NCBI RefSeq assembly: GCF_000025005.1
Contig: NC_013525.1
Location: forward strand, 1,514,501 to 1,578,500
DNA from: Thermobaculum terrenum ATCC BAA-798
GTDB taxonomy: Bacteria > Chloroflexota > Chloroflexia > Thermobaculales > Thermobaculaceae
DNA: 64,000 nucleotides
Direction: 5' to 3'
Under the pieces are notes generated by a model, which was not told where the DNA came from, made no database searches, and saw only the letters and a list, made by a program, of their open reading frames with translations. Made by a program: the position numbers and the translations under genes. Positions 1,447 through 58,785 of this stretch are shown here, one piece after another (within the stretch, counting starts at the first letter, position 1; each line of letters opens with the position of its first letter).

Positions 1447-3040
1447 TAGCATTCTCCCATGCTGCGAGTACTACGTCATGTATAGCTTTGGGGAGAAATT
1501 CACAGCTATACGGTATATATAGCCTCTCGGTATACTTGTGAGCATCAAATCCGAGTACGCCCATATTGACTACATCCAGGTTAACCTTGCGCATGCTCTC
1601 AAAAGGAACATTGTATGATCCGCTTTCACGCTTATTGGACCAAATGGGCATGTTTTTGCTTAGCGAGTCTAAGGATGAGGATTCAACCTCCAGCTTCATG
1701 TAACTGGCATCGGATATGTATGGATAGTAATGCTGTATCTTAGTGCCCAAGTTAGCAGCCAACTCGGTAACAGCTCGCACAAGTGGGTTGTCTTCTCCCC
1801 CTTTTACGCTCGGATAATAAGGGGGAGAAAAGTAGACTACGGCAGCTGGACCAGACATTCCACTCATATTCCAAGCTGTTCTTACCAACTCCGCACACCT
1901 CATTCTTGAGTCTGTGCCGGATTCAAACAACCGTTGGTTTATTTCCCTTAAAGCTTGTGCCACTTTATCCTTCCCCAGTATAGAGACGGCAGCTTCTACC
2001 AGCTCATCGTAAGTAACGACCTTGGGAGTTACCCCAGGGATATTGATATCAATATCCCCTAAAGACTCTACAATGGCAGCATTCACCAAAGCAGCTATCT
2101 CATCTATTACGTTCTTAGGGGATTTTCTTAGAACCAGGTAGTTTATGTAGCAGAAACTTTCGAAGGGGATCCTTACATCATAGCTGTCCTTGAAGTCACA
2201 CATCTTCAGAGTAACAGGTGCGACCGACCTCACGTCGTTGTCGGTATCGGCCAAATCGGGATTCATACTTATCTTGGAAACAATTCTTGCCAGAAGCAAA
2301 TTAGCGTCAATGCCTTTGGAAGGTTCCCCCGCATGGGACTCAACACCACGCACGTAGATACTAGGGAGCAACTTACCTATAGTACCTACGTGCATGGTGG
2401 AATCCATCTCCTCGCGAGAGCTGGGTGTCGAATAATCAGTATTTATGGCACCTATTAGCCTAAGACCTTCCTTCTCTGCAAGGGTTGAGAGCCATTCTAC
2501 GGCCCCCATGATGCCTATGCTCTCAGCCTCCTCATCTGGTACGGACAAGAATATTATGCTACCTGGTAACTCTTTTCCCTGAAGCTTCTCCTTACAAAAC
2601 TCGGATAGGGCCCATAGATGAGCAGCAATACCTGCTTTCATATCGACCGTGCCGCGACCAAACAACCAATCAGATTCAGCCCTTAGATGCTCATAGACAA
2701 TGTCGTCTAATTGTTCCCTTCGAGATAACAAGCGTTCGCGTAGCGCACCAGGATCGCAGGCATAACTTCCAAGGTCTCCATAATCTGAAACGTCAACAGT
2801 ATCAAAATGAGATATCAAGACAACAGCATTGTTCGAACTTCCCCTCAGCAAGGCCCAAACAAAAGAACGTTCCCAAGGATCTCCAGCTATCTTTTGTATT
2901 CCGTGCTGAAGGAGGCCGAGTCCAATCTCATCGAGGAGCTCATCTATTAGAGCAGGTATGCTTCTTTCACCCTCTGTCCTCGTAAAGCTAGGATGCTTTA
3001 CAAGCCGCAATATGATGCTCAGAACATTCTCTATAGACAT
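1439..3040 (-). CDS. M20-family peptidase, RocB-like
   Basis: A zinc hydrolase of the M20 family, about 533 residues, most like RocB, an arginine-utilisation-associated protein of uncertain reaction. Metal-site motifs are visible: ISHFDTVDVSDYG (His-x-Asp), FGRGTVDMKAGIAAH (bridging Asp), and PDEEAESIG (catalytic Glu pair). ESHAGEPSKGIDA belongs to the dimerisation insert. I choose the ATG at 3040 because the AGGTGA ribosome site falls inside the longer TTG-started version (3061). It starts 10 bases after the heptose adenylyltransferase gene and overlaps moaC. No arginine pathway genes are adjacent, so the substrate is open; a broader amidohydrolase or peptidase role is possible. Confidence 0.85.
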   Translation of the reverse strand: MSIENVLSIILRLVKHPSFTRTEGERSIPALIDELLDEIGLGLLQHGIQKIAGDPWERSFVWALLRGSSNNAVVLISHFDTVDVSDYGDLGSYACDPGALRERLLSRREQLDDIVYEHLRAESDWLFGRGTVDMKAGIAAHLWALSEFCKEKLQGKELPGSIIFLSVPDEEAESIGIMGAVEWLSTLAEKEGLRLIGAINTDYSTPSSREEMDSTMHVGTIGKLLPSIYVRGVESHAGEPSKGIDANLLLARIVSKISMNPDLADTDNDVRSVAPVTLKMCDFKDSYDVRIPFESFCYINYLVLRKSPKNVIDEIAALVNAAIVESLGDIDINIPGVTPKVVTYDELVEAAVSILGKDKVAQALREINQRLFESGTDSRMRCAELVRTAWNMSGMSGPAAVVYFSPPYYPSVKGGEDNPLVRAVTELAANLGTKIQHYYPYISDASYMKLEVESSSLDSLSKNMPIWSNKRESGSYNVPFESMRKVNLDVVNMGVLGFDAHKYTERLYIPYSCEFLPKAIHDVVLAAWENANG

Positions 3041-3050
3041 ACTAGAAATT

Positions 3051-3539
3051 TCACCTCTCAAGCAATTCTCTAATGGTTCCCAGAATGCGGGTAGTCGAAA
3101 AACCTTCCTGGTAGGGCAGTATAACTACCTTACCACCATACTCCCTAACTATCGCAGACTCTGGTAGGCTATTGACATCCGGGGTATAATCCCCGCCTTT
3201 GAAATAGATATCGGGCCTAATAGCTTCTACGATCCTTTCAGCTGTTCTGTCCGAGAATATGGTTACATAGTCTACACAGCGCAAAGCAGACAAAACCTCA
3301 GCACGAAAGATATCTGGGATGACAGGCCTTTGCGGTCCCTTTAGAGCACGGACTGATTCATCACTATTGACGCCCACTATTAGTACATCTACCATGGACT
3401 TAGCTGCACATAGATAGCGGACATGACCCACATGCAAAATATCGAAGCACCCATTAGTAAAGCCTATACTCTTTCCCTGCTTCCTAACGGCGTCCACTAA
3501 TCTAACGATATCTTGTTGGCTTAGTACTCTTTGCTCCAA
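3051..3539 (-). CDS. rfaE2: Heptose-1-phosphate adenylyltransferase (RfaE2/HldE C-domain type)
   Basis: A 162-residue nucleotidyltransferase that, in the family, adenylates D-glycero-beta-D-manno-heptose 1-phosphate to ADP-heptose. The fold signature GFTNGCFDILHVGHVRYL contains the HxGH nucleotide-binding motif; FSTTRI near the C-terminus matches the ISSTxxR-type motif. The start is TTG with a GGGGGG ribosome site 4 bases away. It lies 13 bases after the kinase gene, so the two HldE activities that are fused in Escherichia coli are separate here. The ADP-heptose presumably feeds a surface glycan; the glycosyltransferase gene two positions upstream fits. Confidence 0.92.
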   Translation of the reverse strand: MEQRVLSQQDIVRLVDAVRKQGKSIGFTNGCFDILHVGHVRYLCAAKSMVDVLIVGVNSDESVRALKGPQRPVIPDIFRAEVLSALRCVDYVTIFSDRTAERIVEAIRPDIYFKGGDYTPDVNSLPESAIVREYGGKVVILPYQEGFSTTRILGTIRELLER

Positions 3540-55526: not shown

Positions 55527-56666
55527 TTAGGGACTGGGAGTAGCTACTACTGTAGGAGTAGCGCCAGGCGCGGGTTTACGAGCAAGTAGAACAGTATACC
55601 TATTAACTGTGCCTTTGCGAATGACCTGCAGGTGGACAGTCTCACCTGGACGCTTAGCCGCCAGCAAAGACTCGAGCGTTTGCTTCTCATTGACGACCTT
55701 GCCATCGAGCGAGATTATCAAGTCGCCAGGCTTTAGGCCAGCTCTATCTGCTGGAGAATCTGGCAACACAGCAGTGATTAATGCTCCTGACTGATCCAGT
55801 CCCCTAAGCTGAGCAAGCTGCGGAGTTACTGTGACGTAATATATACCTAGGCTTGCCCTCGGACCTGCGCCTGTCTTAAGTAACCGCTGCGCGATATTGC
55901 GTGCTGTATTGGCAGGTAATACCAGTGACCATCCCCTGTTATCCACAGCCACCGTTATGCCTATGATTTCCCCAGCCAAATTGACTACGGGGCCTCCCAA
56001 AGCCACCTCTGGTGCCTTAGCATCCGTCCAAATGAGGTTATCTGCCATCTGGGCCCCACCTATATTGTTCTGAAATCCTATCGAGCCTATGATACCCATA
56101 TCAGCAGTAACCCCAGCCCCATTGCGCGAGATTCCAAGGGCAATAACTTGGGTACCGGTCTCTATCGAGTTTGGATCTGCAAAAACAGGTTCTTTGGGAA
56201 CGGGTACGCTCACCTTGACTACTGCTAATCCTGTGTCCTGGTCAGGGGCCGCTACTAACACCCCTCTTGCTGAACGCCCATCATAGAAAACTACCTGTAC
56301 TTGATCATACCTTTGAAGGACTTGGCTAGTAGTAAGTATGTAACCATCGAGGTTCATAACTACACCATTACCAAGCAGAGTCCTTTGACCTCTACCCTGC
56401 TCCGTACTGGTGGGAGTTGTAATGGTGACCATATAAGGTTCTGAGGATTTTACAACATCAGCGGGGTTCATCTGACTGAGGGGCTGACCTGAGGTCGTAG
56501 TGGGATATCCCCTTCTGGAAAGGGCAAAGCCTGCCATGCCGCCTGCAAGGGCACCGAATACAAGTGCTCCTATCAGCAACAGTATGATAGAAACATAAGT
56601 AAAGCGAGGTTGGCGCTTATCGGAGTTTTCCTGCTCCTCAGCGTCCGTTTCTCTCAGTTCTACCAT
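55527..56666 (-). CDS. HtrA-like membrane protein lacking the catalytic triad (pseudoprotease)
   Basis: 379 residues: cytosolic N-terminus, one membrane segment (about 24-48), a trypsin-fold domain (about 75-250), and a C-terminal PDZ domain (about 265-360, with SPADRAGLKPGDLIISLDGK). The fold aligns clearly with HtrA/DegP, but Gln115 takes the place of the catalytic His (LTTSQVL for LTNNHVV), Gly146 that of the Asp (DTGLAVVKV for TDLAVLKV), and Leu223 that of the Ser (VALGGP for GNSGGP). It should not be a protease. It overlaps the upstream receiver gene by 29 bases. In Mycobacterium a kinase/regulator pair is next to an HtrA (MprAB-PepD), so a sensing role is possible. Confidence 0.9.
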   Translation of the reverse strand: MVELRETDAEEQENSDKRQPRFTYVSIILLLIGALVFGALAGGMAGFALSRRGYPTTTSGQPLSQMNPADVVKSSEPYMVTITTPTSTEQGRGQRTLLGNGVVMNLDGYILTTSQVLQRYDQVQVVFYDGRSARGVLVAAPDQDTGLAVVKVSVPVPKEPVFADPNSIETGTQVIALGISRNGAGVTADMGIIGSIGFQNNIGGAQMADNLIWTDAKAPEVALGGPVVNLAGEIIGITVAVDNRGWSLVLPANTARNIAQRLLKTGAGPRASLGIYYVTVTPQLAQLRGLDQSGALITAVLPDSPADRAGLKPGDLIISLDGKVVNEKQTLESLLAAKRPGETVHLQVIRKGTVNRYTVLLARKPAPGATPTVVATPSP

Positions 56667-57030
56667 CCCTCAGAACTTTCCGAACCTTACGTAGAAGAGT
56701 TCTCTTGTCGAAGGGCTGTGGGAAGACATCCGCTAAGCCATTAAACCTCCCCGCCACAGCCTGTTCCTCCCCAGAGGATACTATACCTATTATAGGCACA
56801 TTCTGCGTAGCTGCATCTCTACGAAGAGAGCGAACTATTTGAACTGACCTCAGCTTGGGCAGATCCATATCAAGAAGGACAAGATCGGGTTTGATATCTT
56901 TTACGGCCTCAACAGCTCTCCTCTTGTCAAATAAGGTGATAGCATCGTATCCGGCACCTTCAAGCGCGCACGCCGCGAGCATCTGAGTCTCCCAACGATC
57001 GCCTATAAGGATGACCCTCTTTCTATCCAC
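56638..57030 (-). CDS. Degenerate single-domain receiver
   Basis: About 130 residues of receiver fold (VILIGDRWETQML, LVLLDMDLPKLRSVQIVRSL). The acceptor Asp is present, but the N-terminal acidic pair is reduced to one Asp (IGDR for VDD) and the conserved Lys is Gln (PQPFDK for xKPF), so normal phosphorylation is doubtful. I choose the GTG at 57030 with a GGGGGG-rich ribosome site; longer forms up to 57093 add residues unlike receiver sequence. It sits between the kinase gene (104-base gap) and the HtrA-like gene. Confidence 0.8.
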   Translation of the reverse strand: MDRKRVILIGDRWETQMLAACALEGAGYDAITLFDKRRAVEAVKDIKPDLVLLDMDLPKLRSVQIVRSLRRDAATQNVPIIGIVSSGEEQAVAGRFNGLADVFPQPFDKRTLLRKVRKVLRDGRTERNGR

Positions 57031-57134
57031 TTCTCTTCCCCCCTTGCCATTAGTCATGGCCGGAAGAAAATAAGTCTCAAGGCAAAGATACACTTACCCC
57101 GTTACAGACAAGTTACTTGAAGGTTAGAAGAGGG

Positions 57135-58595
57135 TTATAAATTGGGAGCTAAACTTTGCGTCTGTGCACTAGAGTGTCTTTCTTCTTCGCGATTATATGT
57201 AGAGTCACCCTCAAAGAGAGGTAACCATACAGTAAAAGTACTTCCCTCACCTTGCTTACTGCTGACGGTTATACGCCCGTTGTGGGCCCTTACTACCCAT
57301 TGAGCTATAGAGAGCCCCAGGCCACTACCTGCCCCTTTGGGGGCTTTGCTAGACCTGTAAAACCTCTCAAATATTCTAGTGAGCTCAGATGGAGCTATAC
57401 CTATTCCCGTATCCCTGATCTCAACTTTAGCCCAGGGAGGCTCGGCATATACCGACACATAAACACTGCCACCTTTAGGTGTATATTTGAATGCATTATC
57501 CAATAGATTCAACATCACCTGTTTGAGCTGGTCAGCATCACCGGATACCATCACCTGATCCTCACGCTCAAGCCTCACAGATAAACCATCGATTGAGGTG
57601 TGCATCTGCTTGAGAGTATCCAAAACTACATCATGCAGATTGACTGGTCTGTATGTTAGGTTTACCTGTCCTGCGTCTGCTCTCGCCAGCATCAACAGAT
57701 TAGAGACCAGACGGCTTAGCCTGGACACCTCACCACGTATGTTCTCTAACCCTTCCCTGACATCAGGGGGTAGGTTTGGATCCATAAGCATCACTTCCGC
57801 ATTCCCCCTGATGGTTGTCAAAGGAGTGCGAAGCTCATGAGAAGCGTCTGCTACAAACCTCTTTTGGCTTTCAAAAGCCTTCTCAAGCCTGTTTAGCAGG
57901 GAGTTGAAAGTACGAGCTAGTCTATTGACCTCAAGTACTCCATAATCTGCAGGCAACCTCTTACTAAGATCATCGACACCGATCTTACGCGTATCCTCGA
58001 CGATGCGGGAAAATGGCCTAAGTGCCTGCCATGCTAGGAAATATGCCAATACCCCTGCGGATACCGAGGCTATCGCCCCACCAAGTATGAGTATGGTCTT
58101 TAACCTAGCGAGTATCCTGTCGACGGGTTCAAGACTCCTACCCACCTGGAGATACCCAAGCACCTCAGTCCCATATTTGACAGGCCTAGTAAGCACTCTC
58201 ATCCTACTACCATCATCCAGCATCACCGTCTGCAGCACGGGACGCTTAACTCTCTTGAGGAAACCAGGATTAGCATCGGGGATGTTAGTATCACTTATGG
58301 TGGGAGCTAAGGGTAATCCATCAGGACCATATAACCTGAGTTGGACGCTCTCCTCGCTCTGCCGGCCCAAGTTTATTACAGCTATCAAACGTTCGATCTG
58401 TTCAGCTATATCAGTATCAGTATCTGAAACCAAGTACTGGGATACCTGCTGGGAATATTCTTTTAGAGATCCATCGATAGAATCATGTAAGGTGCGCTCT
58501 ACTATGTGCTCTATTCCCACACTGAGAGCTGAGACTATAAGTAGTACTGTGACCGTATAGCTAAATGCCAAAAAGGATCGAATACTTGGGAACAT
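57135..58595 (-). CDS. Two-component sensor histidine kinase
   Basis: 486 residues: membrane segment 1 (about 10-30), extracytoplasmic sensor (about 31-160), membrane segment 2 (about 165-188), HAMP (about 190-240), HisKA with phospho-acceptor His in [18 protein letters not shown], and HATPase with [25 protein letters not shown] and [13 protein letters not shown]. All kinase boxes look intact. Its cognate OmpR regulator is not adjacent; the one at 46.7 kb is a candidate. It precedes the degenerate receiver and HtrA-like genes. Confidence 0.94.
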
Positions 58596-58683: not shown

Positions 58684-58711
58684 AAAAAGCAAAAGGCCGC
58701 TTTCGCGGCCG
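58684..58711 (-). terminator. Terminator after tRNA-CAT
   Basis: On the minus strand GGCCGC-GAAA-GCGGCC (58710-58695) is followed by TTTTGCTTTTT. It begins within 3 bases of the tRNA 3' end. Confidence 0.9.
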
Positions 58712-58712
58712 G

Positions 58713-58785
58713 TGGGCTCGGCAGGATTCGAACCTGCGACCTTGCGGTTATGAGCCGCTTGCTCTAACCGCTGAGCTACGAGCCC
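58713..58785 (-). tRNA. tRNA with CAT anticodon (Met, or Ile2)
   Basis: Read on the minus strand: acceptor GGGCTCG pairs with CGAGCCC, anticodon loop CTCATAA with anticodon CAT, T arm GCAGGTTCGAATCCTGC. Discriminator A; CCA is not encoded (the next bases are CCG). It is not an initiator by its acceptor end, which is fully paired. Elongator Met and lysidine-modified Ile2 cannot be separated with certainty by eye. Confidence 0.9.

Follow-up and report, generated by a model that had tools for sequence, protein, structure and literature searches.

A predicted HtrA-family pseudoprotease encoded with a sensor kinase and a pseudo-receiver in Thermobaculum terrenum

A protein of the HtrA family in which all three catalytic residues have been replaced is encoded on chromosome 1 of Thermobaculum terrenum, within the stretch of 64,000 nucleotides analysed here (the window), together with a sensor histidine kinase and a degenerate stand-alone receiver. 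The dead triad, the selection acting on the gene and the conservation of the cassette were jointly shown, and this combined result is regarded as almost certain. That a dead HtrA is encoded beside an intact kinase and a degenerate receiver suggests that the protein, referred to below as pseudo-HtrA, binds or senses rather than cuts. To our knowledge, few bacterial HtrA pseudoproteases have been described, and these are chiefly magnetosome proteins. The cassette is a small, thermostable and testable system in which it can be asked whether an HtrA senses protein damage without cutting, and in which the use of pseudo-receivers, called a mystery in a 2025 review (PMC12632262), can also be studied. 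The host, a heat-loving soil bacterium, has a thick wall of the Gram-positive type and its growth optimum at 67 °C (PMC3035366).

The gene and the approximate limits of its domains are as follows.
55527..56666, (-): pseudo-HtrA, 379 amino acids (open reading frame, Pfam, alignments and AlphaFold model)
56532..56603, (-): predicted transmembrane helix, approximately residues 22-45 (hydropathy and model)
55872..56441, (-): trypsin-fold domain, approximately residues 76-265 (Pfam, model and fold match)
55572..55871, (-): PDZ domain region, approximately residues 266-365 (Pfam and model)

Pseudo-HtrA consists of a cytoplasmic N-terminal tail, one transmembrane helix, a degenerate trypsin-fold domain and one PDZ domain, in that order. 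The predicted helix is marked by a hydropathy peak of 2.47 at residues 27-45 and by a helix at residues 21-43 of the AlphaFold model, and it is flanked by basic residues; the topology is probably N-in. Pfam matches above the cut-off were obtained for both domains (Trypsin_2, 61.7 bits, residues 99-237; PDZ_2, 63.7 bits, residues 286-360). The AlphaFold model, a monomer built with 43 homologues, has a mean pLDDT of 82.9, and almost every block of ten residues within the protease and PDZ domains scores 78-97; in Foldseek the model matches the crystal structures of DegQ, DegP, DegS and AlgW (E ~1e-24 to 1e-30; TM up to 0.85 by target). Fold and domain order confirm that the window protein is a bona fide member of the HtrA/DegP (S1C) family. 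Its layout, with a transmembrane anchor and a single PDZ domain, is of the DegS type; against the DegS equivalog (NCBIfam TIGR02038) it scores 133 bits, with the cut-off at 422.95. Membership of the MamO family was rejected (NCBIfam NF040961, 40 bits versus a cut-off of 800).

The catalytic positions correspond to the following codons.
56322..56324, (-): Gln115, catalytic His position (alignments)
56229..56231, (-): Gly146, catalytic Asp position (alignments; Gly in all five orthologues)
55998..56000, (-): Leu223, nucleophilic Ser position (alignments)

These three substitutions had been proposed in the first-pass annotation of the window, and they were confirmed by agreeing sequence alignments together with the overall fold match. 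Alignments with DegP and DegQ place Gln115 on the His, Gly146 on the Asp and Leu223 on the Ser, and an alignment of 57 Chloroflexota HtrAs gives the same three columns, which hold His, Asp and Ser in 100% of the 51 intact homologues. An intact triad elsewhere in the active site was looked for and not found: the sole histidine, His345, lies in the PDZ domain and none lies in the trypsin domain, so that a substitute His/Asp/Ser triad is impossible. The T. terrenum protein also has no Cys. The nucleophile motif GNSGG has become VALGG, and its Asn is gone in all five orthologues. Judged by its sequence, pseudo-HtrA is catalytically dead and unable to cut. A close described parallel in kind is MamO of magnetotactic bacteria, which has the HtrA/trypsin-2 fold, a non-functional active site and non-catalytic roles (PMC4794232). 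MamO, however, keeps the His and Asp and has Thr at the nucleophile position, whereas the window protein has lost all three residues; MamO is also longer and binds metal via a di-histidine motif, whereas the window protein has one His and belongs to a kinase cassette.

The erosion was surveyed over 84 columns whose residue is shared by 80% or more of the active HtrAs. Among those missing from every pseudo-HtrA are the triad positions, the Asn preceding the His, the Asn preceding the Ser and the GFA strand lining the S1 pocket, whereas the core glycines, the GG-P beyond the former nucleophile and most PDZ positions are kept. Other residues are fixed across the pseudo-HtrA clade (T113, G146, P219-E220, W246, L248 and L250), three of which, W246, L248 and L250, sit by the S1-pocket strand. 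The earlier statement that the fold residues and the PDZ domain are well kept is accurate for the T. terrenum protein but does not extend to the whole clade, as the Gly of the 'AGLKxGD' PDZ loop is lost in three of the four orthologues (genomes G295, G400 and G403).

The search for orthologues covered 400 genomes of the phylum together with 40 relatives. Close orthologues turned up only in the same family, in genomes G295, G400, G401 and G403, with E values of 1e-82 to 1e-87 against 7e-41 for the next match; a scan of the genome contigs with the single pseudo-HtrA protein gave no additional full-length relative. The triad positions read Q/G/A in G295, S/G/V in G400, D/G/L in G401 and S/G/V in G403; across the five proteins the Gly at the Asp position is fixed, while the His and Ser positions vary. 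The reading frame is open in all five genes. Such a survey had been suggested in the first-pass annotation, where a normal triad in orthologues and decay of the present frame would have counted against a selected role; all four orthologues have lost the triad, and none has a broken frame. The five proteins form a clade with 100/100 support whose stem measures 0.99 substitutions per site, and with full support and so long a stem a single loss of the triad on that branch is the simplest reading. A degenerate triad was found in one of 73 other HtrAs examined, 21 further HtrAs included. This protein (genome G413, locus L042, 1141-2484, +) reads Q/D/A, groups elsewhere in the tree and lies outside any kinase cassette, with a sigma-factor-like gene approximately 2 kb away.

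Selection was measured between G400 and G403, the sole pair close enough for dN/dS. Over the whole gene the ratio comes to 0.13; taken separately, the protease domain gives 0.14 and the PDZ domain 0.08. Non-synonymous changes are far fewer than the neutral expectation (p ~1e-14). Three pairs of HtrAs with intact triads from the same two genomes gave 0.19, 0.23 and 0.22; the difference from pseudo-HtrA is not significant, and constraint on pseudo-HtrA is not relaxed relative to its active paralogues. The protein has the defining property of a pseudoprotease, namely catalytic residues that are absent in orthologues under purifying selection. Triad loss shared by five species, its single stem and purifying selection together make a selected non-proteolytic role well supported, as the first-pass annotation had argued in preference to decay.

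The two genes encoded before pseudo-HtrA complete the cassette.
57135..58595, (-): sensor histidine kinase, first cassette gene (Pfam, hydropathy and motif comparison)
56638..57093, (-): stand-alone pseudo-receiver, second cassette gene (Pfam and motif comparison)

The kinase has two transmembrane helices, an extracytoplasmic region and HAMP, HisKA and HATPase domains, and its H, N and G boxes are intact in all four genomes that hold the cassette (T. terrenum, G295, G400 and G403). In the receiver, DD1 is replaced by Gly, the Thr by Val and the Lys by Gln or Arg in all four genomes; DD2 is lost too in three of them, and the phospho-Asp is kept in all four. Three or four of the five catalytic residues are therefore missing, and the protein has neither a DNA-binding domain nor any other output domain. 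By its residues it is a pseudo-receiver under a published definition (PMC12632262), resembling other bacterial pseudo-receivers in having the receiver fold without catalytic residues and differing from them in standing alone, without an output domain, and in being translated with a pseudoprotease. The start homologous to that of its relatives is probably the GTG at 57030, and in both T. terrenum and G295 the end of its frame shares 29 bp with the beginning of the pseudo-HtrA frame.

Orthologues of the kinase, the receiver and pseudo-HtrA occur together in the same four genomes, with scores far above the next matches, and all three are absent from G402 and G404. In the 96%-complete assembly of G401 no kinase or receiver orthologue was found, and its pseudo-HtrA gene begins at a contig end, which cuts it; given this genome, the link between pseudo-HtrA and the kinase may not be universal. 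In G403 and G295 the order on one strand is DUF4230, kinase, pseudo-receiver, pseudo-HtrA and molybdopterin oxidoreductase, and the oxidoreductase gene lies directly downstream of pseudo-HtrA on the same strand in G401 (gap 30 bp) as well as in G295 and G403. The corresponding T. terrenum genes are now adjacent elsewhere on the chromosome, without the trio.
639613-640062 (G000, C1) and 1967-3448 (L223): DUF4230 gene beside the gene for a membrane-bound molybdopterin oxidoreductase, T. terrenum
58713-58785, (-): tRNA gene (Rfam tRNA, 73 bits, E 2.5e-15)

The DUF4230/oxidoreductase pair adjoins a uroporphyrin-III methyltransferase gene, as in G403. Because the ancestral flanks are adjacent to each other elsewhere in T. 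terrenum, the trio must have stayed together when the flanks separated. It now stands just after the tRNA gene, the kinase being the next gene downstream of the latter. Insertions are common at tRNA genes, and this one may bear on how the trio moved. A terminator-like hairpin (58695-58710) also lies upstream of the kinase with the tRNA gene. DUF4230 was rejected as a general partner; it is common in the class and, among the loci checked, is linked to a kinase only in this family (beside a kinase at none of 16 loci outside it).

Where a membrane-anchored binder that does not cut is encoded together with a kinase possessing an extracytoplasmic region, the simplest reading is that the binder serves that kinase as an accessory sensor. 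We infer, tentatively and with somewhat less than even confidence, that pseudo-HtrA partners the cassette kinase outside the cytoplasm, as a binding protein or co-sensor without proteolytic activity. Anchored in the cytoplasmic membrane and facing outwards, it would form a non-cutting binding module whose PDZ domain and remodelled substrate cleft would capture exposed C-termini or misfolded secreted proteins; the bound state would be relayed to the extracytoplasmic domain of the kinase, tuning the latter. CpxP tunes CpxA, and pseudo-HtrA may act by analogy with this pair or with a DegS-type PDZ domain that reads peptides independently of its own protease. The pseudo-receiver, unlikely to be phosphorylated normally, may be an intracellular binding partner or titrator of the kinase and not a phospho-switch. 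The complete three-protein unit, with an intact kinase, a dead HtrA as peptide-binding co-sensor outside and a phosphorylation-independent pseudo-receiver inside, is a more doubtful proposition. A role as co-sensor is consistent with triad loss in five species under selection as strong as on active paralogues, with erosion centred on the active site while glycine, core and fold positions are kept and new residues become fixed, with the co-occurrence, overlapping frames and joint displacement of the trio, and with the intact kinase motifs and degenerate receiver in all four genomes. Against it, co-encoding with a kinase may mean co-regulation only, as for PepD and MprAB, no kinase or receiver orthologue was found in G401, and three orthologues carry a changed PDZ loop.

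It is unlikely that pseudo-HtrA instead joins or docks on trimers of active HtrAs and changes their activity. MamO activates MamE-dependent proteolysis in this manner without catalysis (PMC4794232), T. terrenum retains four HtrA paralogues with intact triads, and pseudo-HtrA keeps the fold and most core positions; however, no active HtrA lies in the cassette at any orthologue locus, and the stem of 0.99 from the paralogues weakens, without excluding, mixed trimers. An outcome in which pseudo-HtrA is a chaperone or holdase for secreted proteins, with the kinase controlling only its expression, is likewise unlikely. Gram-positive HtrAs are also chaperones (PMC12826053), as is PepD in vitro (PMC3062566), and the molybdopterin oxidoreductase, encoded directly downstream in three genomes, would perhaps be among the clients; yet T. 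terrenum has lost the linkage to the oxidoreductase and kept that to the kinase, and the cassette receiver has no DNA-binding domain. A new ligand- or metal-binding function on the old cleft is improbable: clade-fixed residues surround the former S1 pocket and nucleophile, and MamO binds metal on the same fold (PMC4794232), but the T. terrenum protein has a single His and lacks Cys, which speaks against a His/Cys metal site. Decay to a pseudogene was rejected as scarcely credible, since the faster divergence of the orthologues (45-54% identity in the protease domain versus 58-77% in active paralogue pairs) is outweighed by five intact frames, a dN/dS of 0.13 that refutes decay in substance, and a conserved operon with its overlap.

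DegS and AlgW, PDZ-gated stress-sensing proteases, share with pseudo-HtrA the transmembrane anchor, the single protease and PDZ domains and the fold. They signal by cutting an anti-sigma factor, whereas pseudo-HtrA is unable to cut, and the kinase encoded next to it points to a different output. PDZ-bearing HtrAs encoded beside a sensor kinase, in the context of envelope or secretion stress, are also known: in mycobacteria the gene for PepD directly follows those of the MprAB two-component system (PMC3062566), and HtrB occurs with CssRS in Streptomyces (PMC12802291). PepD, however, is proteolytically active, and its system includes a DNA-binding regulator, whereas the present cassette has a dead protease and a pseudo-receiver that stands alone. 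The earlier remark that no role had been described for such a protein in this kind of operon needs to be narrowed, as active HtrAs beside two-component systems are familiar; it holds for an inactive HtrA in that position, of which no description was found. Among open-licence papers, none was found on an HtrA with triple loss in a kinase cassette, and none paired a pseudo-receiver with a pseudoprotease. Pseudoprotease HtrAs (MamO) and kinase-linked active HtrAs were thus known already, and the present lineage and the double-pseudoenzyme cassette were not found described.

In G405 (L041; L133, 4323-6002, -), an intact stand-alone receiver lies directly upstream of an intact HtrA, a suggestive picture of an ancestral pair; the tree, however, does not place the G405 HtrA next to the pseudo-HtrA clade, and an ancestral pair of this type was not retained. 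In five genomes of the same class (G126, G166, G309, G402 and G404) a kinase likewise adjoins an HtrA in regulator-kinase-HtrA operons, but there the triads are intact and a DNA-binding regulator gene lies beside the kinase in at least four of the five. Descent of the cassette from these operons is not supported, as their HtrAs form a separate clade (100/100). Operons of a kinase with an active HtrA recur in the class (L123, L124, L125, L126 and L141), with an HtrA clade of their own.
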